A DNA stretch of 62,055 nt, from the IMG/VR virus record IMGVR_UViG_3300045996_000553, positions 1 through 62,055 of that record. One strand, 5' to 3'. Origin of the DNA: a virus. The notes under the pieces are model-generated. The model was not told where the DNA came from and made no database searches. It saw only the letters and a program-made list of their open reading frames with translations. Numbering within the stretch: the stretch's first letter is position 1; each line of letters starts with the position of its first letter. The position numbers and the translations under genes were made by a program. Of this stretch, positions 6,285-34,747 are shown in pieces.

Positions 6285-6511
6285 TAGCGTCCGAAATTCC
6301 TTTCCAGTTCAAACTCATCCATGATGTATTCTCCTGTTCGGTTTCTGCTTGCTAGTTCATCTTCGCAATACTCTACGATAAAATCCTCTTCGATGTTGTT
6401 GATACTCCACTCAAGATAAGTATTCGGAACGTCTTCGATACTTTCTCCTTCGTGTTTGCCGTAGGTGAAGACGTAACTTGTCTGTGTGAAAGATAGTTCT
6501 TGTTCAGCCAT
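6281..6511 (-). CDS. DUF3820-like small protein (76 aa)
   Basis: The segment YGKHEGESIEDVPNTYLEW resembles the 'GKYKG..i.dvP..YL.W' pattern of DUF3820-type proteins, often found beside phage DNA metabolism genes. ATG 6511 overlaps the last base of the polymerase stop codon (TAATG), which argues for this start over the longer frame to 6541. Function unknown. Confidence 0.65.
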   Translation of the reverse strand: MAEQELSFTQTSYVFTYGKHEGESIEDVPNTYLEWSINNIEEDFIVEYCEDELASRNRTGEYIMDEFELERNFGRY

Positions 6512-7845
6512 TATGCTTCCCATCCTTTCAGTTCGTTCCAACGTTTCCCGTATTTCGCATCCGATTTTAAAGGAACAGCAAACCGAACAACCTTCTCCAA
6601 AGCCATATGAGATAAGATTTTCGGTATCCAGAAATCTAAAGCGTTATCATTTATTTCGAAAATTACGCTATCATGCACAGCAAGGTGCATAGTCGGTGCT
6701 TCCGGTCCATACGCCTGAAACTCCGCGTCCATATTCGTAATCGCTATACGAAGGACTTCATTCGCTCCTCCCTGGATTACAGGGTTCGGCGCAGCATACG
6801 CCTTGTTGTAAAGCCTCCCGTCTTTCAGAAGAATATCAGGAAAACGGCGAACCCTTCCCGTCCACATCTTCACGTAGCGATTTCGCTGTGCGAATGATAC
6901 GGTTTTGTCGATCCATGCTTTGATAGCGGGAAATCGCTTGTTGTAGTCGTCTAAGATATTTTTGGATGCTCCGAGTTCCGTCCAAAACAGTTTCCCTTCT
7001 TCGGTAGACCATTCAGGATAGGTTTCATCTTTCTTTCTTCGCATATTCTTTGCAAGGTAAAATCCTGTTTCTTCCGCATTTTCACACGTAAAAATATCCA
7101 TCGTTTGCAGTAAGTCTATTAGTTTCACGCCTTCCAGTCGCAGCGAGTTCACAAGTCCTTGAGGACCGGCTCCATAAATGGCTGTAAAGTTTACGCGCTT
7201 TGCAACTTGTCTCGGTATGTTAAGCAGTTCAGCCGTTTGCGTGTGAACGTCGATGCCATTGTTGTAAGCGTAAATCAGATTCGGGTCCTGCGACATATGA
7301 GCAAGAATACGAAGTTCGATCTGACTTTCATCACAGTCCACAAGCGTTTTACCGGGAGGAGATACAATGGCTCCCCGCACGTTGTAGATTTCGCTCTCCC
7401 TCGGCAGAGTTTGCAAGGCAGGACGCTTGATCGAAGCCCTACCTGCCGCCGTCAGCAAGGCGAAATCAGGATGAAGGCGATTGTTCTCATCCAAACATTC
7501 GAGGAACGGGATGAAATAAGTGTCTCTCGCTCTCCCCCATTTTCGGTAGTCGTTCAATAGCATGGCTATCGGGTGTTCGCTATCTTCCAAAGCCTGCCTT
7601 GCCGTCGATTTCATTCCTAGGACTTTACCGACCTGTGCAGGAGAGTTCAGATTGAACTCCGTTCCTGCTTGCCGATGGATTTCAAGTTCAAGTTCCGACT
7701 GTTTTTCATTGCAGTTGATAACGGCTTGGTTAACGAAATCCGTGTCGATAAGACAGCCGTTGTCCTCCATTCGACCTACTGCTTCACCATAACGACATAT
7801 ATCAATTGCTAAATCCCAAAGTCCCTGCTGTTCAAGTCCTTTCAC
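6511..7845 (-). CDS. polA: Family A DNA polymerase, polymerase domain only
   Basis: A 444-aa Pol I-type polymerase core without an exonuclease domain. Motif A is CDESQIELR, with catalytic Asp172 but Glu in place of the usual Tyr. Motif B has R212, K216, NF219-220 and YG224-225. Motif C is HDSVIF, with Asp392 followed by Ser instead of the usual Glu. It copies phage DNA and presumably works with the separate exonuclease encoded just upstream. It starts at GTG 7845, which overlaps the exonuclease stop by one base (TAGTG) behind a GGGAG ribosome site, so the two subunits are translationally coupled. Confidence 0.92.
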   Translation of the reverse strand: MKGLEQQGLWDLAIDICRYGEAVGRMEDNGCLIDTDFVNQAVINCNEKQSELELEIHRQAGTEFNLNSPAQVGKVLGMKSTARQALEDSEHPIAMLLNDYRKWGRARDTYFIPFLECLDENNRLHPDFALLTAAGRASIKRPALQTLPRESEIYNVRGAIVSPPGKTLVDCDESQIELRILAHMSQDPNLIYAYNNGIDVHTQTAELLNIPRQVAKRVNFTAIYGAGPQGLVNSLRLEGVKLIDLLQTMDIFTCENAEETGFYLAKNMRRKKDETYPEWSTEEGKLFWTELGASKNILDDYNKRFPAIKAWIDKTVSFAQRNRYVKMWTGRVRRFPDILLKDGRLYNKAYAAPNPVIQGGANEVLRIAITNMDAEFQAYGPEAPTMHLAVHDSVIFEINDNALDFWIPKILSHMALEKVVRFAVPLKSDAKYGKRWNELKGWEA

Positions 7846-8765
7846 TATTTACTCCCGTATCTGAGCAATTCATACAATTTATAAGTCAAAACAGCGTCTT
7901 GCTTTGCATACAAAGCAACGATTTCCAAGTCCAACTTCGCCAGTATCGACATAGGTTCAACTTTCTTTATGGCTGAAATCGCAATCATCGCCTTATTTCT
8001 CGCTTCGTAAAACGTGAGGAAATCGAGCAGCCCTGCCGAATGATCTTTCAGCTTTCGCTTGTTTATGTCAGCTATCTTCCCTCGCAACGTCGCTATGGTT
8101 TCTCCCATCTTTTCCAAATCAACAGATTCGTCCAGTTCTTCTCCTTTCTCTCGTTTCTTTTCCAGTCGATTGTATTGCAGCGTTAAAGGTTTCAGGGCTT
8201 CTTTGTAAACAGCTTTCTGTTCGGCTCTCCACGATTGTTCCATATGGCGAAGTTCGATTTCAGCAGCATCCCGTATCATTATTTGAGCGTTTAAACTCTC
8301 CGCAAGGTATTCGTTTGCAGCTTGTTTCAACGCCGTCTGTTCCGCCGTTTCGTCTATGCCGAAGTATTTTGCAGCCATAGGCTTCAGTCCGAAGGAAGGT
8401 TCGTTTTCTTCGTTCAGATGGGCCAGGAGCATACCGTCTACAATAAAAGCGTTTACCTCCACTCCTTCGTGCTTTAAAAACTTCGTATCGAACTTCCCGT
8501 TCCACGTAATGAGCCAGTTATCCTGATTTCCGAAGTATTCACGGACTTGATCGTGAAAGAGTTCAGGAGAGAGTTGGTAGTTGATTTCGTGACGTATCGG
8601 GATATAGTAGGACTGCTCGTTGCTTGGCAGAAAAAAGGAGTGTCCGATGATCTTATCCCCATTGAAAGGACGTAAACCCGTCGTTTCCAAATCAAAAGCG
8701 ACAGACTGATTGGAATACAGTTCTTCAATAAATGGTTTCAGTTGTTCTTCGTTTTGGATAATCAT
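7845..8765 (-). CDS. DNA polymerase 3'-5' exonuclease subunit (DEDDy)
   Basis: A 306-aa DnaQ/Pol I-type proofreading exonuclease. Exo I is FDLETTGL (24-31), Exo II is NGKFDTKF (89-96) and Exo III is YAKQD (286-290), which makes it the DEDDy class. Between Exo II and Exo III lies a long charged, helical insertion (about 150-250) likely to form a coiled coil, possibly the docking surface for the polymerase. In most phages this domain is fused to the polymerase; here it is a separate gene coupled to it. Confidence 0.88.
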   Translation of the reverse strand: MIIQNEEQLKPFIEELYSNQSVAFDLETTGLRPFNGDKIIGHSFFLPSNEQSYYIPIRHEINYQLSPELFHDQVREYFGNQDNWLITWNGKFDTKFLKHEGVEVNAFIVDGMLLAHLNEENEPSFGLKPMAAKYFGIDETAEQTALKQAANEYLAESLNAQIMIRDAAEIELRHMEQSWRAEQKAVYKEALKPLTLQYNRLEKKREKGEELDESVDLEKMGETIATLRGKIADINKRKLKDHSAGLLDFLTFYEARNKAMIAISAIKKVEPMSILAKLDLEIVALYAKQDAVLTYKLYELLRYGSK

Positions 8766-13205: not shown

Positions 13206-13402
13206 CGTTTTCTTCCCGCCATATCCGCTAGTGCAATCAAAATGGCAATAGGCCAAAACAAAGCCGCTAAGAATATCCCCGTATAAACCGCTTCGACGCT
13301 AAAAACAGTATGCGGGAACTTTCCGTCCTTTTCATTTTTCATTCCCCTAACCATCATCGCTATAGCGATTGTCAAATACAACAATATAAAGACGTATATC
13401 AT
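13202..13402 (-). CDS. Small membrane protein (66 aa), tandem paralogue
   Basis: Two predicted membrane helices (about 2-19 and 38-58) flank a lysine-rich linker, with a basic end (GRKR). The ribosome site AAGGAGGAA lies 6 bases ahead. That site sits inside a duplicated copy of the helicase gene's last codons (13403-13438). Function unknown. Confidence 0.65.
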   Translation of the reverse strand: MIYVFILLYLTIAIAMMVRGMKNEKDGKFPHTVFSVEAVYTGIFLAALFWPIAILIALADMAGRKR

Positions 13403-13420
13403 CGTCGTTCCTCCTTCACG

Positions 13421-13437
13421 CGCTTGTCAGCCATTTT
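13421..13437. repeat. 17-bp direct repeat, copy 1
   Basis: Identical to 13664-13680. On the minus strand it encodes MADKR of an 11-codon frame (MADKRVKEERR) that copies the end of the SNF2 helicase (MADKRVREERR). It lies downstream of the 67-aa gene. Confidence 0.8.
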
Positions 13438-13641: not shown

Positions 13642-15066
13642 CTATCTCCTTTCTTCTCTAACTCGCTTGTCAGCCATTTTGATAATCTCCTCCGTCAGTT
13701 CCCGTTTGTTGTTCAGAAGCGGTTCTATACGCAGCGTTTCTATACTATTCTCCACAAGCAGTTCATAAATGGTTACGGCTTTCTTTTGCCCCGGCCTGTG
13801 TATCCGGTTCGCAGCCTGTTCGTTCGCAGCGTCACTCCACACTTTATCTAGGAAAACACAGATACTCGCTTCCGTAAGGTTTAAGCCTACGCCTCCGCTT
13901 TGCGTCGTCAGCCATACCACCTGAACGTCATTCTCCTTCCTGAAAGCGGATAGGGCTTCGTCTCGCAGTCGCGTATTCTCTTTCCCTGTGTGTCTCACAG
14001 CCTTAATGCCGTTCTCCTCACACATCGCCATTCCGAGCGTTACAGCCCGTTCAAACTGCGTGAATACGACGATCTTTTGATCTGTGGATTGGATGAGTTC
14101 AAGCAGGACTTCAAACTTCGAGGTTTTCCAACCATGGCCGAACTTTTCACCATTCAGAAGCGGCATAACGGCAAGGTCAGGACTGATGCAAAACTGCTTG
14201 AGTCTCGTTATCTGGCTGATAATAACCGGAGCCGCTACCTCCCGGTTCTCTTTCAATTGCGCTATCCACTCGGCAAGCATTTCATCGTAAACCTTCTGCT
14301 CATCCGGTTTCAGCTTCACATAGATTTTTTGGTAAGTTTTTTCCGGCAGGTCAGGAAGGACTTCCTCTTTCAGTTTACGGCGAAAGATCGGAGCTATTTC
14401 CTGTTTCAAAGCGTCAGGGTTTTTCGAGCGTATTCCCACCGTTACCCCGCCGAAAGCGTTCTTCTCCTTTCCGCAGCCATAGACAGGATGATCGACAAAA
14501 CGCCAGTAACTCGAATATCTCTGACGATCTATCATATGAAGCAGCGTCCATAAATCGGGAACCTTGTTGTAAATAGGAGTTCCCGTTAGCAAAAACAGAG
14601 TAGGTATGTGTTGCGCTAGATGGTTGATGCCAAGATAGGAGAGCGTTTTCCGGTTCCGAAGCACATGGGCTTCATCCACGCTCAAACTCTCGAAACCCAT
14701 CTTCGCTATGGCTGACAGTTCAAAAGGAATCGTTCGATCCTTTTTGATCTTCAACTGTTCATAGTTGCAACAAAGGACCCCTTGCCTCCCCATGTATTCT
14801 GAAAGAATTTGTTCCCGTTTTTTCGCCGTTCCTTCAAGGATCGTGAACGGGGCTTCGGGATACCATAAAGAAAACTCAGCCTGCCAGTTCCTTTTTAGAC
14901 TGGCGGGACAGACGACAAGCATTTTGGAGTGTTTCAGGGCTTTGAGCGTCATAATCACGGAATTGGTTTTGCCCAATCCCATATCATCGCCTAAAATGCA
15001 TCGCTTCTGCTGAACCATCCAGTTACGGTTTTCTACCTGGTGCGGGAAAGGTTTCAGTTCAGTCAT
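13642..15066 (-). CDS. SNF2-family DNA helicase
   Basis: A superfamily 2 SNF2-type ATPase of 474 aa. Motif I is GDDMGLGKT, motif II is VDEAH, motif III is LLTGTP, motif V is TTQSGGVGLNL and motif VI is NRIHRPGQ. Such phage enzymes translocate on duplex DNA and are thought to help recombination or replication. ATG 15066 overlaps the upstream stop (ATGA), which is preferred over the longer frame to 15093. The last eleven codons are repeated at 13403-13438. Confidence 0.92.
   Translation of the reverse strand: MTELKPFPHQVENRNWMVQQKRCILGDDMGLGKTNSVIMTLKALKHSKMLVVCPASLKRNWQAEFSLWYPEAPFTILEGTAKKREQILSEYMGRQGVLCCNYEQLKIKKDRTIPFELSAIAKMGFESLSVDEAHVLRNRKTLSYLGINHLAQHIPTLFLLTGTPIYNKVPDLWTLLHMIDRQRYSSYWRFVDHPVYGCGKEKNAFGGVTVGIRSKNPDALKQEIAPIFRRKLKEEVLPDLPEKTYQKIYVKLKPDEQKVYDEMLAEWIAQLKENREVAAPVIISQITRLKQFCISPDLAVMPLLNGEKFGHGWKTSKFEVLLELIQSTDQKIVVFTQFERAVTLGMAMCEENGIKAVRHTGKENTRLRDEALSAFRKENDVQVVWLTTQSGGVGLNLTEASICVFLDKVWSDAANEQAANRIHRPGQKKAVTIYELLVENSIETLRIEPLLNNKRELTEEIIKMADKRVREERR
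13664..13680. repeat. 17-bp direct repeat, copy 2
   Basis: Identical to 13421-13437. This copy is inside the 3' end of the SNF2 helicase gene. Confidence 0.8.
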
Positions 15067-15491
15067 TTTTGTTCCATACCGCAAGCACGACAAGTCCCGT
15101 CCGTTACCGTGTCACAGTTCCAACAAAGATTCGGTTCCTTCGGTTCTCTGATTTCCGTAACTTTTACTTTTATCCAATGGTTTTCTTTCTTTATAGTTTC
15201 GGAAAATGCTAATAACGTAACGGGAGAAAACCAACCTTCCCATTCAAACAAAGGAGGTTCTTCCGTTTCTTCTTCGATTAGCGGGAGAAGTTCGGCAAAA
15301 TCACAAACGATTTCACCTATACCATTTATTTGAACATCAGCCATACTGCCTTCACATACTTCTTTTATTACTCCCATTTCTCCGATATGTTCTCCTATCG
15401 CATATTCATACGAAGCAATATATTTTTGCAATCCTGGTATGCCTAAATCAGCAACCACGCGCACTCTATCTCCTACCTTGAAGTTATGCAT
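15063..15491 (-). CDS. KOW/SH3-like protein with C-terminal zinc ribbon (142 aa)
   Basis: The N-terminus (HNFKVGDRVRVVADLG, later GEMGVIKEV) resembles small beta-barrel domains that contact nucleic acid. The C-terminus CWNC...CRACG is a zinc-ribbon pair. It could be a helicase partner, since its stop overlaps the helicase start. Function unknown. Confidence 0.62.
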   Translation of the reverse strand: MHNFKVGDRVRVVADLGIPGLQKYIASYEYAIGEHIGEMGVIKEVCEGSMADVQINGIGEIVCDFAELLPLIEEETEEPPLFEWEGWFSPVTLLAFSETIKKENHWIKVKVTEIREPKEPNLCWNCDTVTDGTCRACGMEQK

Positions 15492-15493
15492 AA

Positions 15494-15766
15494 TCAGTTT
15501 CTCCCTGGACGGTAATCCATCGCTTCAGCCATTGCTCTATCGGTATCTACGTTCTTCGCATCCGCTTCCAGTTCCACAACGTTTTCTAAAATATCGCTCA
15601 ACGCTTCGGCGCATTTTGAACACGCATGACCGTCGTTTTTCCTATAGGTGTGCCCACCGATCTTTACGCCTGGAATCGTAATATGAACCGTATCCCGTTC
15701 CGTAAGGTAGGGCAACGTGTCGGATTTTTGGCAAAAGTCGCACTGGAAAACTTTTATTTCAGCCAT
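15494..15766 (-). CDS. Zinc-finger-like hypothetical protein (90 aa)
   Basis: FQCDFCQKS near the N-terminus and HACSKCAEAL later give a CxxC...CxxC pair that should bind one zinc. The C-terminus is an acidic helix. Two bases separate it from the next gene downstream. Function unknown. Confidence 0.65.
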   Translation of the reverse strand: MAEIKVFQCDFCQKSDTLPYLTERDTVHITIPGVKIGGHTYRKNDGHACSKCAEALSDILENVVELEADAKNVDTDRAMAEAMDYRPGRN

Positions 15767-15778
15767 AACAAGTATCTC

Positions 15779-16225
15779 CTATCGTAAAATAGTTTCGTTT
15801 AAAACTTTTTCAAGCGAATTCAAGTTTCCAGGCGTTTGATCTTTCACGTATTTTAACGCTGCCATGTAAACGTTCTCCAAACAGCGCGTTCGATCTTTCA
15901 CACGTTCAAGCAACGCGCACGTATGATCTTCTTCGATGTATTTCACCATATCCGAAGAACGCCTTGCTCTCATTTCCTGTTTGATAACGATCATATTTTT
16001 ATCTATGGCGGTTTTGGCAAAAACGGCTTTACTTCTCCATTTCTGAAAGTCGATATTGCTTATTCGCATCCCAAAATTATCTGTTTTGTTCCGGTTGGCT
16101 AGTTGTTGTTCAATGTGCATTTTTTCCGTTTTCAATCTATCGAATTCTTCTTCCAGTTCCTCCATTTCCCATGTAGAAACGTTTGTCGTATCTTTTAACG
16201 GTTTATCCTCATAAATTTCAGCCAT
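15779..16225 (-). CDS. Coiled-coil hypothetical protein (148 aa)
   Basis: Residues about 18-45 form a long charged helix (EMEELEEEFDRLKTEKMHIE) likely to be a coiled coil. The remainder is helical and basic. It sits in the operon between a zinc-finger-like gene and a small helical gene. Not recognised. Confidence 0.65.
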   Translation of the reverse strand: MAEIYEDKPLKDTTNVSTWEMEELEEEFDRLKTEKMHIEQQLANRNKTDNFGMRISNIDFQKWRSKAVFAKTAIDKNMIVIKQEMRARRSSDMVKYIEEDHTCALLERVKDRTRCLENVYMAALKYVKDQTPGNLNSLEKVLNETILR

Positions 16226-16226
16226 G

Positions 16227-16439
16227 TTAGATCAATCCTTTCGGCTCATAGGGTTTCACTTGAGTGAAACATCCTTGTTTTATGGCTTGTTCGATATGGT
16301 GCAGAACCAATCCGAGTTCCAATACGCCTTGTTCCAACACGCTTGCTTTTATTTCCCCGATGATTTCTCCAATTAAATCAAGACTCAAACTTTCGGCAAT
16401 CTCTTTTGAAGAGTTATCCAAGCAGTTATGTTCAGCCAT
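16227..16439 (-). CDS. Small helical hypothetical protein (70 aa)
   Basis: It starts MAEHNCLDNSSKEIAESLSL at ATG 16439 behind GAAAGG; the open frame continues to 16451 without a better site. Leucine and isoleucine-rich helices (LIGEIIGEIKASVLEQG) suggest a small oligomer. Function unknown. Confidence 0.6.
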   Translation of the reverse strand: MAEHNCLDNSSKEIAESLSLDLIGEIIGEIKASVLEQGVLELGLVLHHIEQAIKQGCFTQVKPYEPKGLI

Positions 16440-16441
16440 TA

Positions 16442-16549
16442 TCAACCACAACCTTTCTCACTCAAAAATGTGAACAACTGGTAACAAAAGAACGTCCATG
16501 CCGCCGCTACGAACAACCAGGACAGTTTATCTCCTAACGTTGAATTCAT
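16442..16549 (-). CDS. Single-pass membrane peptide (35 aa)
   Basis: A 35-aa frame starts at ATG 16549, which overlaps the stop codon of the gene upstream (ATGA) and follows GGAGG at 9 bases. One hydrophobic segment (WLFVAAAWTFFCYQLFTFL) is followed by a short polar tail. Function unknown; the coupling to another one-helix membrane protein suggests a pair. Confidence 0.65.
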   Translation of the reverse strand: MNSTLGDKLSWLFVAAAWTFFCYQLFTFLSEKGCG

Positions 16550-16770
16550 CTGCTCATACCTCCAATAAAAGCCAACAAGTGAAAGATCAACCAGACAGGG
16601 AGAATAATGATAAGGAAACCTGTCAGAAACCCTCCTGTGAACGTTTTAGGCGGATTGCGAGTAGGAAGAGGTTCTTCCCGTTGCCTTCGCTGTCCCGCTG
16701 TCCTGGCGCGTTTGGGCCGCGCTTCTCTTTCCCAATCCTCTTCGGGCAGTTTCTCGCCTGCTTCCAACAT
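16546..16770 (-). CDS. Basic tail plus one membrane helix (74 aa)
   Basis: The first 42 residues are highly charged, Arg/Pro/Glu-rich and cytoplasmic in character. They are followed by GGFLTGFLIIILPVWLIFHL, a single membrane helix. It is the first gene downstream of the promoter at 16849-16878 and is coupled to the 35-aa membrane peptide. Function unknown. Confidence 0.65.
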   Translation of the reverse strand: MLEAGEKLPEEDWEREARPKRARTAGQRRQREEPLPTRNPPKTFTGGFLTGFLIIILPVWLIFHLLAFIGGMSR

Positions 16771-16848
16771 AAAATCTCCTCTCGTAAATAGGACGGGAAA
16801 ATGATTTTAAATGAGTTTATCAGCTTAAGTCAGTTTCTAAGTGTCTTT

Positions 16849-16878
16849 ATTCTATCTGGTTTCCGTCTTGTTTGTCAA
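16849..16878 (-). promoter_or_regulatory. Strong sigma-A/70-type promoter
   Basis: TTGACA and TAGAAT are separated by 18 bases on the minus strand, about 80 bases ahead of the 74-aa membrane gene. It probably drives the string from 16770 down to the helicase. Confidence 0.8.
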
Positions 16879-17088
16879 CTAAGACTTACTTCCTCCTCTC
16901 GCTGACGTGGAATCGAACAACAATTTGCAAATGAACGCCAATCGAAACATTTCCCAAAAAGACAGTTTCGGAAGTCCGAAAATCGGCATAGTAGTATTCC
17001 AAAGATACTGACAAAACCACGTTCCGACAAAGAAAAACGCTGCTGCCATTCCGATTATGGAAAGACAAGAAATTGCTTTTTCACTCAT
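16879..17088 (-). CDS. Two-helix membrane protein (69 aa)
   Basis: Helix 1 is about residues 8-28 (IIGMAAAFFFVGTWFCQYLW) and helix 2 is about 44-60, joined by PIFGLPKLSFWE. The 'P.FG.P.LSF' joint occurs in other small phage membrane proteins of unknown function. The gene overlaps the upstream gene by 4 bases. A holin-like role cannot be excluded, but it lies in the early region. Confidence 0.62.
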   Translation of the reverse strand: MSEKAISCLSIIGMAAAFFFVGTWFCQYLWNTTMPIFGLPKLSFWEMFRLAFICKLLFDSTSARGGSKS

Positions 17089-17288
17089 ACCTCTTCCCCT
17101 TTCTTAATCCGAACAGGTTTTCCGTTCGGTTGGATGAAATAGCAATCGACGGAAAATCCTTGGTTTTCAAAGAAGTTGTTCAGTTCCTCCTCCCACGTTT
17201 CAGGATCGGTTCTGATCGGAATATCCGCTTGATGCCAGTCTTTGTAATCCGTTGTAATCAGGTCGCCTGTTCTTGGTTTACGTTTCAT
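17085..17288 (-). CDS. Hypothetical protein (67 aa)
   Basis: A polar protein with a Trp-containing acidic centre (RTDPETWEEELNNFFENQG) and a basic C-terminus. Coupled to its neighbours by 4-base overlaps on both sides. Not recognised. Confidence 0.62.
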   Translation of the reverse strand: MKRKPRTGDLITTDYKDWHQADIPIRTDPETWEEELNNFFENQGFSVDCYFIQPNGKPVRIKKGEEV

Positions 17289-17581
17289 ATTCTTACCCCT
17301 TCCCGATAGCCATGCTCAACCATTTCCAAATCTTCGCCATAAGCGGATTCAATCCGTATGCCGCAATTCCCGCATTCTAAGGAATCATCTTCATAGTTGA
17401 CCTCAACGTGTGTAGGGGTGTTCTCCGGCCCGTATTCTCCTCTGACTTCCCTAGAGGCGCAATCAGGGCAAGAGACTTCGCCTGTGTTTTCGTTGAAGTA
17501 GTAAAGCGGATAACCACCGGGCCAAGCCCAGGCCATAAGCGTAGATTCGGATACGAAACTGTCTGACGTGATTTCAGGCAT
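17285..17581 (-). CDS. Zinc-ribbon hypothetical protein (98 aa)
   Basis: CPDCASREV at about 38-46 and CGNCGIRI at about 71-78 form a CxxC...CxxC zinc ribbon within an acidic protein. It may bind nucleic acid or a host protein. Not recognised further. Confidence 0.65.
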   Translation of the reverse strand: MPEITSDSFVSESTLMAWAWPGGYPLYYFNENTGEVSCPDCASREVRGEYGPENTPTHVEVNYEDDSLECGNCGIRIESAYGEDLEMVEHGYREGVRI

Positions 17582-17599
17582 TTTGAAGTTTCCTTTCTT

Positions 17600-17737
17600 C
17601 TACAATTTGTTCAACAAATTTTTTATATGCATTGCAACATGATAATTCGCTTCTCTAACCACATATTTTTTATTTAAAAGATCATATACGTGATAGTAAT
17701 TGCAATAATCACTTTCCTCTACAATAAATCTTTTCAT
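17600..17737 (-). CDS. Small hypothetical protein (45 aa)
   Basis: It starts MKRFIVEESDYCNYYHVYDL behind a strong AGGAGG site at 7 bases and ends NLLNKL. It is preceded by the structured element at 17787-17850. Tyr-rich, not recognised. Confidence 0.7.
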   Translation of the reverse strand: MKRFIVEESDYCNYYHVYDLLNKKYVVREANYHVAMHIKNLLNKL

Positions 17738-17786
17738 TTCTTTACCTCCTAAAATGACCTGTGACAATCCTTATTCGATGTTGCAT

Positions 17787-17850
17787 AAGATACCCTGCTG
17801 ATGAGGCTTGCCCCTCTCTCCGTTGAACCTGGAAGGAGTGCGGGTATCTT
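17787..17850 (-). promoter_or_regulatory. Structured leader RNA element with 9-bp closing stem
   Basis: A perfect 9-bp stem (17787-17795 with 17842-17850) encloses 46 bases that can form two further short hairpins (GAGG/CCTC and CTCC/GGAG), giving a three-way junction. It lies 49 bases ahead of the 45-aa gene and 11 bases after the previous stop codon. There is no T tract, so it is not a simple terminator. A regulatory role is inferred. Confidence 0.45.
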
Positions 17851-17861
17851 GTGGTTTCGGT

Positions 17862-18095
17862 TTACTTGGAGAAGTTTTTAATCAGGTTTTTATATTCCGC
17901 AGGGCTTGTGTCAAAGGTAGCGGGGAAAATGTTTTTGAATTCAGGATAGACAGAAGTTAAAGCGGCAATTCCGCTATACTCCTCATCTATCGCTTGCACA
18001 ATATCGCCTGTCTTGGAATTCATAACGACATAAACTCTTCGGGGATTGCCGTTTCGATCATTCCCCGCGTTTAATCTGATAGCTGTGTGAGTCAT
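17862..18095 (-). CDS. Hypothetical protein (77 aa)
   Basis: It starts MTHTAIRLNAGNDRNGNPRR at ATG 18095 behind AAAGGAAC. The open frame reaches 18128 but overlaps the preceding gene without a ribosome site. YVVMNSKTGDIVQAIDEEY is a likely beta hairpin, and 'GN.RR.YVVM' is frequent in small phage proteins of unknown role. Confidence 0.65.
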   Translation of the reverse strand: MTHTAIRLNAGNDRNGNPRRVYVVMNSKTGDIVQAIDEEYSGIAALTSVYPEFKNIFPATFDTSPAEYKNLIKNFSK

Positions 18096-18097
18096 TT

Positions 18098-18337
18098 TTA
18101 GAGTTCCTTTCCTTTTCCGATTCCCCATGAAAAACCGATAACGAAGTTATAGAGGCTTTCCGTATTGTTAAATGTAAACTTCTTGAAACAACCTTCCACC
18201 GTAAAGCAAAGTTCTTTCCGAGACTCTCCTTCCACGTCTAAAATATCGATAGCAATACCGTAAAGTTTGGAAACGTCTGCCGCTATCTGTTTAGCGGCTT
18301 CCAGGTTAAAATCGAAGTCTGTTTTCGCTTGTTGCAT
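18098..18337 (-). CDS. Hypothetical protein (79 aa)
   Basis: A small alpha/beta protein starting MQQAKTDFDFNLEAAKQI. Its ribosome site (GAAAGG, 8 bases ahead) is buried in the outer stem of the RNA element at 18346-18411, so translation should depend on that fold opening. Not recognised. Confidence 0.68.
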   Translation of the reverse strand: MQQAKTDFDFNLEAAKQIAADVSKLYGIAIDILDVEGESRKELCFTVEGCFKKFTFNNTESLYNFVIGFSWGIGKGKEL

Positions 18338-18345
18338 AATATCCC

Positions 18346-18411
18346 AACCTTTCCCTGTAGTTCACAGGCAAGCCCTTTGCAGGGCTTCCGCACTCGTTAA
18401 GCCGAAAGGTT
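18346..18411 (-). promoter_or_regulatory. Three-way-junction RNA element 1 hiding a ribosome site
   Basis: The outer stem is 8 bp (18404-18411 with 18346-18353). Two inner hairpins are 18370-18376/18381-18387 (7 bp) and 18354-18358/18364-18368 (5 bp), and a 16-nt single strand lies at 18388-18403. On the minus strand the 5' side of the outer stem overlaps the TAA stop of the 18410-18955 gene, and the 3' side is the GAAAGG ribosome site of the 79-aa gene. Its twin is at 20644-20709, with a similar single strand. Confidence 0.7.
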
Positions 18412-18955
18412 ATGCAGTTTGAATAATCTCTCCAATCATCGTTTTGGGGATGCGATAGCGGCAATTCATATATACGCCGATGATTTTCGGGTCGGATTGT
18501 ATAACTGTAACTTGTGGAATGCTGCTATTGATAAGGGACAAGGTATCCCCTGGTTTGATATTTTCCAAAACGTTCTTTAACCTTGCCTTCTCATCTTTCT
18601 TGTAGGCTTGTTGTTCGGCGCATTTTATCCGGTAGTTTGCGGCGGATTCGTTTGGGCAGGGAACTTCTTCAAACCATTTGAGAGGGCAATCGTAGTAAAA
18701 AGGATGCATACTCTCATCGAGTCCCTTGTATCCCCAACCATAACCACGAGAGGAAACGAGAAGATCAATCCGAATATATTTGAGAAGGGATATGCCTTCG
18801 GGAGACTTTTTCTCCCACAAGGAATAAACCGTGTTCCCTACGGTTTTCTTCTCCTTGCAGGTATGAACGATGCCTGTGTGTCCATCTCCCCAATTCTTTG
18901 TTATGTCTGCAATAATGCTTGCCTTGGTTGCGCCGTAAGTGTAAGAAGTTCCCAT
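18410..18955 (-). CDS. Conserved phage hypothetical protein (181 aa), DUF6927-like
   Basis: It starts MGTSYTYGATKASIIADI. A GYGWGYKGLDESMHPFYYDC block and WFEEVPCPNESA resemble a widespread, uncharacterised phage/plasmid family (DUF6927-like by memory). The C-terminal part (PGDTLSLINSSIPQVTVI) looks like a small beta barrel. Function unknown. The stop codon forms part of the RNA element at 18346-18411. Confidence 0.65.
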   Translation of the reverse strand: MGTSYTYGATKASIIADITKNWGDGHTGIVHTCKEKKTVGNTVYSLWEKKSPEGISLLKYIRIDLLVSSRGYGWGYKGLDESMHPFYYDCPLKWFEEVPCPNESAANYRIKCAEQQAYKKDEKARLKNVLENIKPGDTLSLINSSIPQVTVIQSDPKIIGVYMNCRYRIPKTMIGEIIQTA

Positions 18956-18989
18956 TTGTTTTATTCTCCTTTGTGAGTGTGTAAGTATG

Positions 18990-19028
18990 TCTCTCCTCTG
19001 TCTTTATCTTATCTTAACAGAGGAGAGA
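18990..19028 (-). promoter_or_regulatory. 11-bp leader hairpin
   Basis: A perfect 11-bp inverted repeat (18990-19000 with 19018-19028) has a 17-nt loop and lies about 35 bases ahead of the 181-aa gene. The minus-strand 3' flank has no T run, so this is probably an mRNA leader hairpin or processing site. Confidence 0.55.
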
Positions 19029-19054
19029 AAGGAACTGGTATTTTTAATAGGGTT

Positions 19055-19420
19055 TCAGGAAAGATAGATCAGTTCATCGTCTCCTGTATAAGCGTCTGTC
19101 TCTCCGTAACTGTGAGAAATTTGCGTCAGTTCTTCCCCGTTCTGTAAATCCCCGTCCCAAAACCCAGCGCCGTGTCTGTTGCGTGTCAACCAGAAGTCCA
19201 TTCCGGCTTTTTTATCGGAATAATCTCCTGCTTGAAATTCCTCTTCCCATAACGGCGAACAGATTTTGTAAAACGCGCTACATTCTAATTCGATTCTTTC
19301 CTGCGCCTCTTCGGAAAAATCGAATTGGTCTTTATCATCGGGGATAAGATCGTCCGTATCCCCTTGTGACGTAAAGAAAATCGCTTCAATGTATCCCTGC
19401 TTAAATTCTGTGTATCCCAT
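19055..19420 (-). CDS. Conserved phage hypothetical protein (121 aa)
   Basis: It contains GYIEAIFFTS near the N-terminus and AGMDFWLTRNRHGAGFWDGD near residues 73-92, a pairing I recognise from uncharacterised proteins in many unrelated phages. Strongly acidic. Function unknown. Confidence 0.7.
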   Translation of the reverse strand: MGYTEFKQGYIEAIFFTSQGDTDDLIPDDKDQFDFSEEAQERIELECSAFYKICSPLWEEEFQAGDYSDKKAGMDFWLTRNRHGAGFWDGDLQNGEELTQISHSYGETDAYTGDDELIYLS

Positions 19421-19454
19421 GATTTAACCCTCCAAAATAACCTGCATAGTGACG

Positions 19455-19658
19455 CTAACGAACAAAACTGTGATGATGAGCCATTATCGCATCCTCTAAA
19501 ATCTGAATTCCACGCGGAGATTGCAATTCTACGCAAAGATTACAACCTTTCTCCCTACACGGACGGCAACCTTCTTGATACGGGATTGTGCAGTCACAAA
19601 GATGCGTAAAACCCTCTTGTTTTAGTTGAATCAGCATTGCTTTTGCTTTCTTTGTCAT
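19455..19658 (-). CDS. Cysteine-rich hypothetical protein (67 aa)
   Basis: CDC, CRPC and CNLC clusters within residues 21-42 suggest one or two zinc or iron-sulfur sites. The ribosome site is GAAAGGAT. A leader hairpin (19709-19752) lies about 50 bases ahead. Not recognised. Confidence 0.65.
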   Translation of the reverse strand: MTKKAKAMLIQLKQEGFTHLCDCTIPYQEGCRPCREKGCNLCVELQSPRGIQILEDAIMAHHHSFVR

Positions 19659-19708
19659 TGCTGTATCCTTTCATATTCCAATGTTGCGTTTGTTTACTGT
19701 GTAGCAAT

Positions 19709-19752
19709 CAGGCGCAATGGTTTGAACCTATCCCTTGGAAGCGATGCGCCTG
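19709..19752 (-). promoter_or_regulatory. 8-bp leader hairpin
   Basis: A perfect CAGGCGCA/TGCGCCTG stem (19709-19716 with 19745-19752) has a 28-nt loop. It lies between the 152-aa gene and the cysteine-rich gene and is not followed by a T run. Confidence 0.45.
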
Positions 19753-19763
19753 TGATTTTTACG

Positions 19764-20222
19764 TTAGATCAAAACTTCTTCATATTCCCGATTCTCTATC
19801 TCGGTTTCAATGTAACCTTCCGCTAGTTCCGTATAATTTACGCCTCTCTTTCCGATCCAATTTCTCATTCGACTAGCTAAAACTTTGACAGCTTTCTCTT
19901 TGCTTTCCGATAACGTGTAAATCTGTTTGGCTTGTTTTGTCCAATAGTTGTAAGAATCCTGGTCATTGTCCATTTCTAAACCAACCTGCCACGTTTTGTA
20001 ATTTGTGTATCCCTGGTAGCTTTCTTCCGCTTTCTCCTCTTCATAACCGTCAAACCATTGTCCGTAACGTTTCGTTCGGTTTGTTTCCGTTTTGCCTGTT
20101 GCAGTTGTGGAACTCGTTTCGGGATTCTGGCAATGGGCTTGCGCTTCCTCTAGTGTTAAGCCTTTCTTGATTGTTCGGTTTGCGGAATTTTGGAAATGTC
20201 GAATGATTCGATAGGTCGCCAT
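19764..20222 (-). CDS. Fusion of two common phage hypothetical domains (152 aa)
   Basis: The N-terminal half (YRIIRHFQNS...GLTLEEAQAHCQNPETSS...WFDGYEE) is a small domain found alone in many actinophages and other phages. The C-terminal half (GYTNYKTWQVGLEMDND...YWTKQAKQI) is another widespread stand-alone family ('TNYETW.V.LW.DND'). Here they are joined in one protein. Both roles are unknown; the fusion suggests that they act together. Confidence 0.72.
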   Translation of the reverse strand: MATYRIIRHFQNSANRTIKKGLTLEEAQAHCQNPETSSTTATGKTETNRTKRYGQWFDGYEEEKAEESYQGYTNYKTWQVGLEMDNDQDSYNYWTKQAKQIYTLSESKEKAVKVLASRMRNWIGKRGVNYTELAEGYIETEIENREYEEVLI

Positions 20223-20227
20223 TTTGA

Positions 20228-20434
20228 TTACTCCTTCTCATCTATCGGGGAATGATAAATTCCGCTTCGTGTTTTAGGTTCCAGTTTTAAAACATCTTCC
20301 GCAAACAGGAAAGAAGATGTTAAATACTTCTTCCCTAATCGCTTTTCTTTACTCCAGACCGCTTTATCGTTTTTCCATCCGACAAAATATGCTTCTGTGG
20401 ACATTTTGCGAATGTGTCCGACTTCGTAAGACAT
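20228..20434 (-). CDS. Hypothetical protein (68 aa)
   Basis: It starts MSYEVGHIRKMSTEAYFVGW behind GGGAG and is basic in the centre, with a polar end. It lies 5 bases from both neighbours. Not recognised. Confidence 0.62.
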   Translation of the reverse strand: MSYEVGHIRKMSTEAYFVGWKNDKAVWSKEKRLGKKYLTSSFLFAEDVLKLEPKTRSGIYHSPIDEKE

Positions 20435-20438
20435 TTTG

Positions 20439-20633
20439 TTACTCTCCCTTTCTCATAATTGCCGCCATTCGATTAAACTTCTCGGTATTGTTTTCTTTCC
20501 AGACGCTAGCGGCTTGTCTCGCTTCGTTCCTGCTAGATGACAATGGCTTTTCGTTTCGTCTTGTTTCTTCCGTGTCAATAGTTTGTAAAGCCATAAAGGG
20601 AATTCTTGTTTTCTCGTTTAACATACTTTTCAT
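20439..20633 (-). CDS. Hypothetical basic protein (64 aa)
   Basis: ATG 20633 follows GAAAGG at 10 bases, and that ribosome site is the 3' side of the outer stem of the RNA element at 20644-20709. The open frame continues to 20693 through the element but has no ribosome site there. The protein is rich in Arg, Glu and Ser (ETRRNEKPLSSSRNEARQAA) and probably disordered. Confidence 0.6.
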   Translation of the reverse strand: MKSMLNEKTRIPFMALQTIDTEETRRNEKPLSSSRNEARQAASVWKENNTEKFNRMAAIMRKGE

Positions 20634-20643
20634 CGGTTTGTTT

Positions 20644-20709
20644 CCTTTCCCCTTATCAGAAGGGTAGGAAGCCATTAAAGACTTCCCCCGCACGATTTAC
20701 GCCGAAAGG
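20644..20709 (-). promoter_or_regulatory. Three-way-junction RNA element 2 hiding a ribosome site
   Basis: The outer stem is 20704-20709 with 20644-20649 (CCTTTC/GAAAGG). Inner hairpins are 20667-20671/20682-20686 and 20650-20654/20660-20664, and the single strand is at 20687-20703. The arrangement copies element 1 (18346-18411): TAACCTTTCGGC starts at the upstream stop codon, the single strand is similar (CCGCAC...GCC on the plus strand), and the GAAAGG ribosome site of the next gene is paired. Confidence 0.68.
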
Positions 20710-21105
20710 TTAAAGCAGGTTTCCTTCGGAATCCGTCAGACACTCGTCTAATGGTTGCACCGGATACATAATCGAGCCGATATTCCTGTATTGCGTCTGA
20801 TAATGTTTGTTGCGAAATTCTTCTTCATTCTGGTAGGTTGTGTATGCCGTTTTCACAATGGCGTTTGGGTTTAACTGGTAGAGATTGGAAAAGAATTTTG
20901 CGAATCCATACCAGTTAATCGCGTTCTTTTTCCTGCCGCTCATTCCCGATTGTGAAAGCCATTTCTTTTCTTGCGGATTCGGGGAAAGTTTCACGTTAAA
21001 TCTGTCGCCTTTGGCATTTAACGGCTTGAAATTGTCCAACCGAATTCCGCCTGTGAGGATAGCTGCTTGCTCTATCTGTTCCTTTGTGACGTTTGCAATA
21101 ACCAT
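20710..21105 (-). CDS. Conserved hypothetical protein (131 aa)
   Basis: It starts MVIANVTKEQIEQAAILTGG at ATG 21105, behind AAAGGA; the frame to 21123 begins with GTG and lacks a site. NAINWYGFAKFFSNLY and IVKTAYTTYQNEEEF resemble small phage proteins of the type 'CWHGHRDFFRALF...VRTAFTTY' seen in other early regions. Function unknown. Confidence 0.65.
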   Translation of the reverse strand: MVIANVTKEQIEQAAILTGGIRLDNFKPLNAKGDRFNVKLSPNPQEKKWLSQSGMSGRKKNAINWYGFAKFFSNLYQLNPNAIVKTAYTTYQNEEEFRNKHYQTQYRNIGSIMYPVQPLDECLTDSEGNLL

Positions 21106-21123
21106 TGGAATAGTTCCTTTCAC

Positions 21124-21190
21124 GTTCGGATTAGACTCATTCAGCTAGGGATTCATCCGATTTACCCTAAGACCCCTAGAAAGGGGTTTC
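21124..21190 (-). promoter_or_regulatory. Structured leader ahead of the 131-aa gene
   Basis: The minus-strand leader can form CCCC(TTTCTA)GGGG near 21168-21182, TAGGG/CCCTA, and TCGGAT/ATCCGA stems. These compete with each other, and no T run follows. It fits the pattern of structured leaders in this region. Confidence 0.4.
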
Positions 21191-21194
21191 GTCT

Positions 21195-21452
21195 TTAATC
21201 TTCGTAAAGTAGGCAATCTTCTTCCTGGCAAGGGCAAGTTTCAACGGTTCGCATTGCATAGCTATCACGCGCTACTGCTTCATAGTCGCCATTAGAGCCG
21301 GATACTTTGAAACCCTGTTCCTTGTAATCCTCTTTCGCGCTGATTGCATAACTTACAGCGTCTTTTCGGTTTGTGAATACTTGGTTATCATCCGGCATAC
21401 AACCGGGAATTCCTACCAGAACGTGATAATGTTGAAACTGCTTGGTTGCCAT
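21195..21452 (-). CDS. Hypothetical protein (85 aa)
   Basis: It starts MATKQFQHYHVLVGIPGCMP and has the pattern of a small alpha/beta protein (NRKDAVSYAISAKEDYKEQG), with an acidic Cys-containing tail (CPCQEEDC). A 12-bp leader hairpin lies 24 bases ahead. Not recognised. Confidence 0.66.
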   Translation of the reverse strand: MATKQFQHYHVLVGIPGCMPDDNQVFTNRKDAVSYAISAKEDYKEQGFKVSGSNGDYEAVARDSYAMRTVETCPCQEEDCLLYED

Positions 21453-21475
21453 AATGGTTGCCTTTCGTGGAATGT

Positions 21476-21518
21476 AGCAAGCAAGACTGTTTTTGAGAAT
21501 TGTCGGGTCTTGCTTGCT
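21476..21518 (-). promoter_or_regulatory. 12-bp leader hairpin
   Basis: A perfect 12-bp inverted repeat (21476-21487 with 21507-21518) has a 19-nt loop. It lies between two genes, 24 bases ahead of the next start codon. No T run follows on the minus strand. Confidence 0.6.
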
Positions 21519-21532
21519 AGGGTTGGTTGTTG

Positions 21533-21829
21533 TTAGATCATTCTTCCGTATTCATCCCGAAGGATGTTAGCGTTGTGTGAACCATAACGCGCCGCTTTTG
21601 ACTTCGTGATATTCCAATATTTGATAAGATTGGTTCCGTCTTGAAGAACAATACCGGGAATATCTTCCTCTAGCGTATTCGGGTAATCTTCGGGAAAGTC
21701 TCTAACTTCCTGCCATTCTTTTACCGCTTCTTTGTAATACTGTAGGGCTTTCTTTTCCTCTCCAAATTTCACGATAGAGGATTGGTAATACTTTCCGTTT
21801 TCTCTGTCGATAAACCTAACGTAATACAT
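21533..21829 (-). CDS. Hypothetical protein (98 aa)
   Basis: It starts MYYVRFIDRENGKYYQSSIV. It is alpha/beta with an acidic loop (FPEDYPNTLEEDIPG) and no special motif. It is the last leftward gene before the gene-free candidate origin. Not recognised. Confidence 0.64.
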   Translation of the reverse strand: MYYVRFIDRENGKYYQSSIVKFGEEKKALQYYKEAVKEWQEVRDFPEDYPNTLEEDIPGIVLQDGTNLIKYWNITKSKAARYGSHNANILRDEYGRMI

Positions 21830-22442
21830 TTCATCTTCCTTTCGTCTGTCGTTCGCCTTAACAACACCATTTTAGCAGGATGAAATAAAGATGGGAACTA
21901 TCATTTCTGATAGTGTTTTCTCGTCTTTAAATCGTCTGTCTTGACGCTTGCTCATAAGCAATCTTGTTTATTGTCTGTCCTTGCCTATGGAACGTCCTGT
22001 AGTAAAGGTGTGAACAGACGTTCATACTCGTTAAAGCCATTAGACGGTGTTAGGCGTGGATTTATACCTATACGCTTGTATCTTGGTAAACGTCCTATGC
22101 TTTCCTCCTTCGTAAACAATAGGTTATAAGCGAAAAACGGGTCTAAATCAGTATGCTAGGTTAGTAAAACCATTTGATAAGCAATAAAGCGTTGCATAAT
22201 AAAGAATGAGTATCGTTAAGCGTATCGTTAGAGGAAAAATGAGGGTATCGTTAGGCGTGGATTAGGCGTGAGCGGTCGCTTCTTGGCAATAGACCCAACC
22301 ATTGGGAAGAGTAAGGGACCGTCTCGCTTGGTAGTAGCATAGGAGTTCAACCCTAACCCAGATCGGGGATAGATATATATTATTCTATCCCCGTAGGGGA
22401 TATAATATATATCTATTCCCCTGGGAAGGGTCCGGGAATTTT
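21830..22442. other. Gene-free region with iteron-like repeats; candidate replication origin
   Basis: No convincing gene on either strand in about 600 bases, which is rare in this compact genome. It holds three copies of GTATCGTTA (22210, 22222, 22245), a 14-bp exact repeat GTTAGGCGTGGATT (22049-22062 and 22250-22263), a further TTAGGCGTG at 22262, and a 57-nt palindrome at 22365-22421. Short repeats plus an AT-rich dyad are typical of phage origins. It could also be a packaging or partition site. Confidence 0.45.
22365..22421. repeat. 57-nt AT-rich palindrome (about 25 bp of stem)
   Basis: The left arm starts GGGGATAGATATATATTA and the right arm ends TAATATATATCTAT plus CCCC. The inner part TATCCCC(gta)GGGGATA is perfect; there is one 3-nt bulge and one single-base bulge. 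It is the strongest dyad in the window. No T run on either side, so a plain terminator is unlikely. Confidence 0.75.
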
Positions 22443-22643
22443 TTATGCTCGGTTGCTTTCCCGAATTTCGTATCTCGAAAAAGTTTTGAGAATTCGCGAT
22501 TGGTTTTCGAGGTGATCTTGGAGTTTTTCCACCGAGGAAAAAGTTTGGGTTCGGGTTCCGAATTCCCCGATTGCATAAAAGCCGGAAAAAACCCGATAGA
22601 CGGTAAAAGATTCGTTTTGAGTTCGGATTACTGCTATTGGCAT
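22443..22643 (-). CDS. Hypothetical protein (66 aa)
   Basis: It starts MPIAVIRTQNESFTVYRVFS behind AAAAGGAG at 7 bases. Beta-rich N-terminus, basic C-terminus. It lies directly beside the 57-nt palindrome. Not recognised. Confidence 0.55.
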   Translation of the reverse strand: MPIAVIRTQNESFTVYRVFSGFYAIGEFGTRTQTFSSVEKLQDHLENQSRILKTFSRYEIRESNRA

Positions 22644-22769
22644 CTCATTCTCCTTTTTGGAATAGGGCTATTTGACCTGAGAATCGTTTCTGTGACGTTT
22701 TAATGGTTTGGGCGGGTGATTTACCGTAGGCCGGAAAAATTTTGTCTCTCCGCCCATTCTTGCGGGAAT

Positions 22770-22922
22770 TCAGGGGAGTTTCGGTTGGAACGAATCGAGT
22801 TCCCCTGCAAAATCTCTTAAGCGAGCAAATAACTCTAAGTCTCTTGCGCTCATTCCGGCCCATAATTTTGTTGCGAGAGGAAACATTTCATAAATCTTTT
22901 CTTGCAAGGGAGTGAACTTCAT
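22770..22922 (-). CDS. Small hypothetical protein (50 aa)
   Basis: MKFTPLQEKIYEMFPLATKL continues with a helix-forming region rich in Leu and Arg (SARDLELFARLRDFAGELD). It follows a 9-bp leader hairpin (22942-22964) and the site AAAGGC. A competing frame (22645-22863) overlaps it, but this frame has the better context. Confidence 0.58.
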   Translation of the reverse strand: MKFTPLQEKIYEMFPLATKLWAGMSARDLELFARLRDFAGELDSFQPKLP

Positions 22923-22941
22923 TTTAGGAATAGCCTTTCTT

Positions 22942-22964
22942 GCCCCTACGTTGACCGTAGGGGC
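22942..22964 (-). promoter_or_regulatory. 9-bp leader hairpin
   Basis: A perfect GCCCCTACG/CGTAGGGGC stem (22942-22950 with 22956-22964) has a 5-nt loop and lies just ahead of the ribosome site of the 50-aa gene. No T run follows. Confidence 0.55.
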
Positions 22965-23026
22965 GATAGAATATGGTTTGGGTGTGATTTGACGTGGAAG
23001 GTTGAAATTTTGCGTGTGTGGCGATT

Positions 23027-23230
23027 TTAGAAGCGTTCCACTTCTAACGATTCTGCCCCGTAACGTTCGGCTAGCAGGTTAAACGTTTTCTCCACTTGTT
23101 TCGCTTCGATATGCGCGGCGGAAGTAATTTCCTCTTCCCATCTCACCCAGGAAGAGTAATTTCCGAATCCTGCGTAATACTTGCCCGTCAGTTTGCGCTT
23201 GATAGCATAAATTCCCGTTGCGTATTGCAT
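23027..23230 (-). CDS. Hypothetical protein (67 aa)
   Basis: It starts MQYATGIYAIKRKLTGKYYA behind GGGCAATG-type context and ends in an acidic helix. Aromatic-rich N-terminal beta segment. Not recognised. Confidence 0.6.
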   Translation of the reverse strand: MQYATGIYAIKRKLTGKYYAGFGNYSSWVRWEEEITSAAHIEAKQVEKTFNLLAERYGAESLEVERF

Positions 23231-23280
23231 TGCATTGCCCTTTCTAAGCGTGAATCAGTGTCATTTGTTGCAATTTCCCG

Positions 23281-23299
23281 CCCCGGAATCGAACCGGGG
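23281..23299 (-). other. tRNA T-arm-like hairpin
   Basis: On the minus strand CCCCGGTTCGATTCCGGGG matches a tRNA TpsiC arm exactly, including GTTCGATTC, just after the stop of the 43-aa gene. No acceptor, D or anticodon arm accompanies it, so it is not a tRNA gene. Confidence 0.5.
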
Positions 23300-23308
23300 A
23301 GAAACCAT

Positions 23309-23440
23309 TCAGGAAGTTTTGATTTTTTTCTTATCGGCCTTGATTTTTTCGATTCGACAGGTTGTGCAAAGGGTTTCACCCACATAACCCACAAACCAAT
23401 TGCATACTTCACATTTCACGATTTTAGGCTCTCTTTCCAT
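23309..23440 (-). CDS. Zinc-ribbon protein (43 aa)
   Basis: A small gene starting MEREPKIVKCEVCNWFVGYV and continuing LCTTCR. The CEVC...CTTC pair should bind zinc, and the Lys-rich tail suggests nucleic acid binding. It has the ribosome site AAAGGGAG and a 7-bp leader hairpin at 23462-23482. Confidence 0.72.
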   Translation of the reverse strand: MEREPKIVKCEVCNWFVGYVGETLCTTCRIEKIKADKKKIKTS

Positions 23441-23461
23441 AATGGTTGCTCCCTTTCATTG

Positions 23462-23482
23462 CCTCGCTAGCTTAAAGCGAGG
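23462..23482 (-). promoter_or_regulatory. 7-bp leader hairpin
   Basis: CCTCGCT/AGCGAGG (23462-23468 with 23476-23482) has a 7-nt loop and ends about 12 bases before the AAAGGGAG site of the zinc-ribbon gene. No T run. Confidence 0.45.
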
Positions 23483-23527
23483 TTACAGGTTTCTTTTACT
23501 AGAGGACGGTAGCGGGTAGCTAGCGTG

Positions 23528-23749
23528 CTACATACGCTTTGCAGGGATTCGATAAATCTCAGTTCCCATTGCCATTTCTCCGGCAAGCATATCGTGAAAG
23601 TCTGCGATATGCTTGTATGCAGCCGATACTCCCTTGGTTTGCTCCTCCCATACGCGCTTTGCTTTGTTCCACGTCACTACTGCCGATGTCTCGTATTGTG
23701 CCTTGACGGGTCTGTAGTTGCTTGCCGCCACATATAGCAGTTTATTCAT
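23528..23749 (-). CDS. Hypothetical protein (73 aa)
   Basis: It starts MNKLLYVAASNYRPVKAQYE behind AAGGAGCAACC and forms a small alpha/beta protein (AAYKHIADFHDMLAGEMAMG). It directly follows the first gene of the leftward early unit. Not recognised. Confidence 0.65.
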   Translation of the reverse strand: MNKLLYVAASNYRPVKAQYETSAVVTWNKAKRVWEEQTKGVSAAYKHIADFHDMLAGEMAMGTEIYRIPAKRM

Positions 23750-23758
23750 GGTTGCTCC

Positions 23759-23932
23759 TTAGAATGAATTGGTGAACCGAGCGAAGTCTGACACCGTTTT
23801 GAACGTGATGCTCTTCCCTGTAGCGCGGAAGGTATAGACTACTTCCCATGTTTTCTCCCCTGCCTCTACCTTGGCGGTAGCTTGATACCAGATTGCGCTT
23901 TCTTTGACCCGGTTGGCTTCGTATGTATTCAT
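23759..23932 (-). CDS. First early leftward gene, hypothetical (57 aa)
   Basis: The gene nearest the leftward early promoter. It starts MNTYEANRVKESAIWYQATA behind GGAAGGA and ends ARFTNSF. Probably a small beta-rich protein. Position suggests immediate-early expression and perhaps a host-directed role, which is inference. Confidence 0.68.
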   Translation of the reverse strand: MNTYEANRVKESAIWYQATAKVEAGEKTWEVVYTFRATGKSITFKTVSDFARFTNSF

Positions 23933-23984
23933 TGGGGTGTCCTTCCTTTATCCTTGGATCGTCTACACTTCGTCTTACACACTT

Positions 23985-24012
23985 ATTATAGCAGGTATTA
24001 TTTTATATGCAA
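23985..24012 (-). promoter_or_regulatory. Main early leftward promoter
   Basis: TTGCAT, a 16-base spacer and an extended TGCTATAAT on the minus strand, about 50 bases ahead of the 57-aa gene. A perfect -10 box and TGC extension make it the strongest leftward promoter seen. Confidence 0.82.
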
Positions 24013-33340: not shown

Positions 33341-33342
33341 GA

Positions 33343-34431: not shown

Positions 34432-34435
34432 TTGC

Positions 34436-34735: not shown

Positions 34736-34747
34736 TTAAACCTCCTG

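Follow-up and report, generated by a model that had tools for sequence, protein, structure and literature searches.

The window analysed here, the whole stretch of 62,055 bases, is a virus record from an uncultured tailed phage, whose head proteins are distant relatives of those of Microcystis phage Mae-JY24 (capsid 30%, portal 22%). On the minus strand it carries an operon composed of small genes without an assigned function, and two intercistronic gaps of this operon hold RNAs of 62-66 nt, here called elements A and B, each of which abuts the TAA stop codon of the upstream gene. Among named phages, Microcystis phage Mvi-JY20 has the best relative of the gene upstream of B. The proteins flanking A and those flanking B are unrelated to each other, so the pair is not a product of gene duplication, and duplicated genes were rejected as its source. 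GAAAGG is the Shine-Dalgarno (SD) sequence of many genes in the operon (window 15000-24000, minus strand), a usage that would fit a host with a 16S rRNA ending in ...CCUUUCU. The genes, the elements and their parts are as follows, in the order of the minus strand.

20710..21105, minus strand: gene upstream of A, 131 aa, without a family match
20710..20712, minus strand: TAA stop codon of the gene upstream of A, abutting P1 (sequence)
20644..20709, minus strand: element A, whole, from the 5' strand to the 3' strand of P1 (sequence; fold z -2.95; CM R1 62.8 bits)
20704..20709, minus strand: 5' strand of P1 in A, CCUUUC, the SD complement (sequence, pair count)
20688..20703, minus strand: junction strand of A, GGCGUAAAUCGUGCGG (12 of 16 bases as in B)
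20666..20687, minus strand: hairpin P2 of A, 7-8 bp, 6-nt loop (compensatory changes; probability 0.83-0.99 in all contexts)
20650..20664, minus strand: hairpin P3 of A, 5 bp, 5-nt loop (pair count; probability 0.22-0.91 by context)
20644..20649, minus strand: 3' strand of P1 in A, GAAAGG, the SD of the next gene (sequence)
20439..20633, minus strand: gene downstream of A, 64 aa, without a significant family match or a tblastn match in phages
18410..18955, minus strand: gene upstream of B, 181 aa, PHROG 21047 (unknown function)
18410..18412, minus strand: TAA stop codon of the gene upstream of B, abutting P1 (sequence)
18348..18409, minus strand: element B, whole core, 62 nt (sequence; fold z -2.85; CM R1 82.1 bits)
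18404..18409, minus strand: 5' strand of P1 in B, CCUUUC (sequence, pair count)
18388..18403, minus strand: junction strand of B, GGCUUAACGAGUGCGG (conserved relative to A)
18370..18387, minus strand: hairpin P2 of B, 7 bp, GCAA tetraloop (pair count; probability 0.94-0.98 in all contexts)
18354..18368, minus strand: hairpin P3 of B, 5 bp, 5-nt loop (pair count; probability 0.96-0.98 in all contexts)
18348..18353, minus strand: 3' strand of P1 in B, GAAAGG, the SD of the next gene (sequence)
18098..18337, minus strand: gene downstream of B, 79 aa, without a significant family match or a tblastn match in phages

Three further observations concern other parts of the window. DNA polymerase I is split over two adjoining genes (window 6511-8765, minus strand), one for an exonuclease-like part of 306 aa and one for a polymerase part of 444 aa, which match the stretches 656-825 and 846-1237 of PHROG 17. 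A 37-nt direct repeat, 78% identical, lies at window 13401-13437 and 13644-13680 with a spacing of 243 nt, and its second copy covers the end of a helicase gene. The IMG/VR contig 3300042904_000270 is 99.8% identical to window 32152-44892 (12.7 kb) and is probably the same phage, from the same or a sister sample.

A first-pass annotation had described one RNA architecture at two sites, beginning on a stop codon and containing a conserved unpaired strand, and all of this was recovered. In A and B alike the start of TAACCTTTCGGC is the stop codon of the upstream gene (TAA at 20712-20710 for A and 18412-18410 for B), which is followed by the strand GGCNTAANNNGTGCGG, a pair of hairpins and, last, GAAAGG. 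More exactly, the order in both is CCUUUC, GGCNUAANNNGUGCGG, P2, 1-2 nt, P3 and GAAAGG, with P3 consisting of 5 bp and a 5-nt loop in each. CCUUUC complements GAAAGG exactly, and together with GGCNUAANNNGUGCGG it makes a 22-nt core identical at 18 of 22 positions, 12 of the 16 junction bases being common to A and B. In B, outer AA/UU pairs lengthen the core to 18411-18346. The next ATG lies 10 nt past GAAAGG (at 20633 for A and 18337 for B), and the stop-to-start gap is 76 nt for A and 72 nt for B.

As bare sequence similarity the 25-nt repeat shared by A and B is unexceptional, comparable chance repeats being found elsewhere in the window, and the significance of the pair therefore comes from the stop-codon register and the fold. 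The 22-nt core at up to 3 mismatches occurs twice in 62 kb (0.04 expected). Among 22-mers downstream of the ORF stops of the window, A and B are the top pair (18/22, with the runner-up at 15/22), and column shuffles reached 18/22 in 0.25% (294 stops) and 0.05% (159 stops) of cases (2000 runs). The isolated elements fold better than shuffled sequences (z = -2.95 for A and -2.85 for B). The hairpin sequences of P2 and P3 are unrelated between A and B and their positions are the same: all 18 stem pairs are formed in both elements, and 8 of these 18, all in P2 and P3, have changed on both sides (for the alignment, P2 of A was trimmed by two loop bases and a closing pair). In a control with the partners slid by 1-3 columns, 39-74% were paired and 0-2 pairs were double-changed. 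This covariation is that between two paralogous copies, which are few, and not a family-wide one, and the whole case consists of these two copies in one uncultured phage. The six pairs of P1 are invariant, so the comparative support is limited to P2 and P3. The earlier claim that the agreement of the stems implies selection on the fold is thus supported for P2 and P3 by the compensatory changes in their sequences; this support does not extend to P1, which never varies.

A further point of the first-pass annotation was that the elements hide the SD of the gene that follows. The complementarity of CCUUUC and GAAAGG agrees with this, and P1 has a probability of 0.94-0.98 in the isolated element. 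However, with 10-100 nt of flanking mRNA the probability of P1 is 0.04-0.59 and the pairing of the SD is 23-71%. P2 and P3 of B and P2 of A form in nearly all contexts, and P3 of A is weaker with long flanks. When a ribosome block around the stop codon was modelled, the mean unpaired fraction of the SD went from 0.39-0.55 to 0.43-0.54; a ribosome stalled on the stop codon is predicted to open the SD little or not at all. A similar measure gave accessibilities of 0.18 to 0.98 for ribosome sites elsewhere in the region, and the sites of A and B fall inside this range. Because the energy models omit tertiary contacts and bound factors, folding in context is compatible with a P1 lid, and the modelled lid over the SD would be weak by itself, poised rather than locked. 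When 14-17 nt of flank are included, the predicted minimum for B has P1 shifted into a different, GU-rich register, UUUCGGCUU/AGGUUGGGA; this register is impossible in A, so it was not adopted as the common fold.

In accordance with the first-pass annotation, A and B belong to no RNA family described in Rfam 15, which gave 0 matches in the whole window at the gathering threshold and 0 matches in 18330-20725 at E<=5 with permissive filters. The hammerhead core (CUGANGA, GAAA and NUH/GUC at a three-stem junction) is absent from both elements by reading of the sequence. There is no intrinsic terminator (a G+C hairpin followed by a U run) at A or B, and this reading was rejected, as was that of a sigma-70 promoter. 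A stop-codon readthrough peptide was rejected too: the frames of A and B yield unrelated peptides, and the identity covers third codon positions as well. So were a programmed frameshift, A and B having no common slippery site, and a pseudoknot between the junction and a hairpin loop, which has no register common to both.

A third copy was found neither in viral contigs, genome contigs and named phages nor in eleven further related virus records and 798 genomes. The CM, which recovers both window copies as a positive control, had no match in the related phages G001-G013 or in 398 + 400 genomes of two phyla, and a blastn comparison of both elements with named phages left the core unmatched. The exact 22-nt core is absent from the viral contigs. 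The core plus one P1 base, TCGGCNTAANNNGTGCGG, occurs in at least 120 stretches; the P1 complement lies downstream in none among the matches listed, which look like chance or coding sequence. Five base pairs of P1 with a relaxed junction selected 41 viral contigs, none of which has the fold of A and B, and their CM scores (<=21 bits) are due to the selecting pattern. The core with a free 5' strand of P1 was matched by three contigs representing one sequence, which folds differently. In genome contigs, 62 pattern matches screened for P1 and open frames gave no third copy; the best of the genome-contig matches (L221, 27 bits) has another fold and lies inside an opposite-strand open frame, and a weak CM match (L189) is within an open reading frame. 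The pattern searches reach just those copies that retain most of the core, and more diverged relatives of A and B may exist. As to the homologues with covariation looked for since the first reading, none appeared anywhere searched, but A and B covary mutually. In G007, a close relative of the phage (capsid 95% identical), the neighbouring genes on either side are retained, whereas the accessory interval at 18.1-21.9 kb is replaced by sequence without any element of the A/B type.

Other RNAs are present in the operon. Ahead of the gene upstream of A lies a hammerhead-like ribozyme (window 21194-21126, minus strand) that begins 1 nt past the stop codon at 21197-21195 and reads AGAC-GAAAC-hairpin-GUC-stem I (closed)-CUGAAUGA-GUCU. 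It has a possible 6-bp pseudoknot between loop I (UCGGAU) and the 3' tail (AUCCGA), a trait that has been reported for type II hammerheads (PMC3088659). The window copy has no Rfam match at gathering; its core is longer by one base, and its activity may be lower. The copy in G007, in a similar location (L143:19387-19442, plus strand), has the canonical core CUGACGA and a weak match to the Rfam family Hammerhead_3 (19.4 bits, E 0.036, below gathering). Since the hammerhead-like element is also stop-adjacent, the RNA cassettes of this operon appear to begin where genes end, and stop adjacency is weaker evidence for coupling at A and B.

A further recurring intergenic RNA has a closing stem of 5-8 bp and one inner hairpin, followed, before the stem closes, by UAGGUUCAAAN, which resembles a tRNA T-arm. 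No tRNA was found in the window by ARAGORN, and Rfam families gave no match to this RNA. Its copies are as follows.

19752-19703, minus strand: copy in the window phage
L144:394-456 and L144:1219-1285, plus strand: two copies in the relative G007
L131:19549-19603, plus strand: possible copy in the distant phage G001

A hairpin with the closing stem AGATACCC/GGGTATCT is found at window 17850-17770 (minus strand) and at L144:1219-1285 (plus strand); the interiors differ, and the strand UAGGUUCAAA is in the relative's copy only.

In A and B a fixed P1 and 12 fixed bases out of 16 in the junction stand against P2 and P3 sequences and flanking genes that differ, a pattern that, judged from the sequences, looks like that of a recognition site. 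Our preferred reading, which we put forward tentatively, is that A and B are cis-acting translational operators, closed by a factor and opened by a terminating ribosome. Each would act between two cistrons of a polycistronic phage mRNA, where P1 would pair the internal anti-Shine-Dalgarno sequence CCUUUC with the GAAAGG of the next gene. P2 and P3 would serve as scaffold hairpins, P3 adjoining P1 without a linker so that stacking is possible, and the 16-nt junction strand would be the part recognised. A trans-acting factor, be it a ligand or a protein of the phage or of the host, would bind this strand, stabilise the weak P1 and turn the gene off, whereas a ribosome terminating at the abutting stop codon would cover CCUUUC and open P1. 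Translation of the next gene would then report both the factor and upstream translation, and one factor could set two unrelated genes jointly. We infer the formation of P1 in the mRNA, the factor on the junction strand and the opening by the ribosome. The SD complement in P1, the pairing of 100% of the stem positions, the double changes in 8 of 18 pairs and the stop-to-SD position in both elements argue for an operator; against it stand a P1 without covariation support, an SD that is not strongly hidden when folded in context and is no less accessible than the range of other genes allows, a stop-adjacent place that the hammerhead-like element has too, and the failure to find a third copy in the collections searched.

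The same abutting stop codon and the same SD complement in P1 would also be expected from plain termination-coupled translation, the simplest model of the first-pass annotation, in which the fold shuts the SD and a ribosome finishing the upstream gene opens it with no factor, as in the precedents of rpmI-rplT and MS2 coat-lysis (PMC12548453). However, such a lid, opened by the ribosome alone, needs no 12 fixed unpaired bases, so that a factor-binding site is favoured; moreover, the modelled block around the stop alters SD exposure little, and the hammerhead-like element is equally stop-adjacent. We regard plain coupling as rather unlikely. Small ribozymes typically combine an invariant unpaired core with stems that change freely, and the location of A and B is of the same type as that of the hammerhead-like element one gene upstream of A, which would suit a catalytic or processing element (a new self-cleaving ribozyme or an RNase site) separating the cistrons. 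That explanation is improbable, because an invariant P1 complementary to the SD is needless for a ribozyme and no Rfam ribozyme model matched, even at E<=5. Chance resemblance, or functionless remnants of mobile or duplicated sequence, would account for the lack of a third copy in all collections searched, for the absence from the close relative G007, where the accessory region is replaced, and for a 25-nt repeat of an identity that is not rare in the window. Nevertheless, pairing was retained despite full replacement of the P2 and P3 sequences, and the register with the stop codons and the thermodynamic z-scores also speak against chance, which we consider improbable.

A wider possibility is that A and B represent a novel class of phage RNA, either a ligand- or protein-sensing three-way junction or a self-cleaving ribozyme, that is placed between cistrons, reads upstream translation by way of the adjoining stop codon and controls two unrelated genes jointly by means of a single conserved junction strand; we hold this to be unlikely. 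If the operator reading is true, 66 nt would join two controls, a readout of upstream translation and the sensing of a factor through a conserved unpaired strand, and undescribed RNA switches would stand beside hammerhead-like ribozymes in phage accessory operons made up of small genes without known function.

In riboswitches that sequester the SD and in ribosomal-protein operators, a junction with a conserved unpaired strand is combined with variable hairpins and with an SD in the closing stem. A and B resemble them in the conserved junction strand, the variable hairpins and a putative closing stem containing the SD; unlike them, they are without an Rfam match and are situated between genes rather than at the head of an operon. 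The type II hammerhead (RF02276 kind) of the same operon is, like A and B, a three-stem intergenic RNA that starts at a stop codon, but A and B are without the CUGANGA, GAAA and GUC core. Translational coupling by RNA unfolding has been described for E. coli rpmI-rplT, with a gap of +52 nt, and for MS2 coat-lysis, where the upstream ribosome can disturb from afar a fold that covers the SD, and initiation is not blocked (PMC12548453). What A and B would have in common with these systems is a lid over the downstream SD, and the geometry is similar. They differ in that their lid is weak in context and the coupling only putative, and in having a three-way junction whose unpaired strand is fixed and which occurs twice, before unrelated genes.
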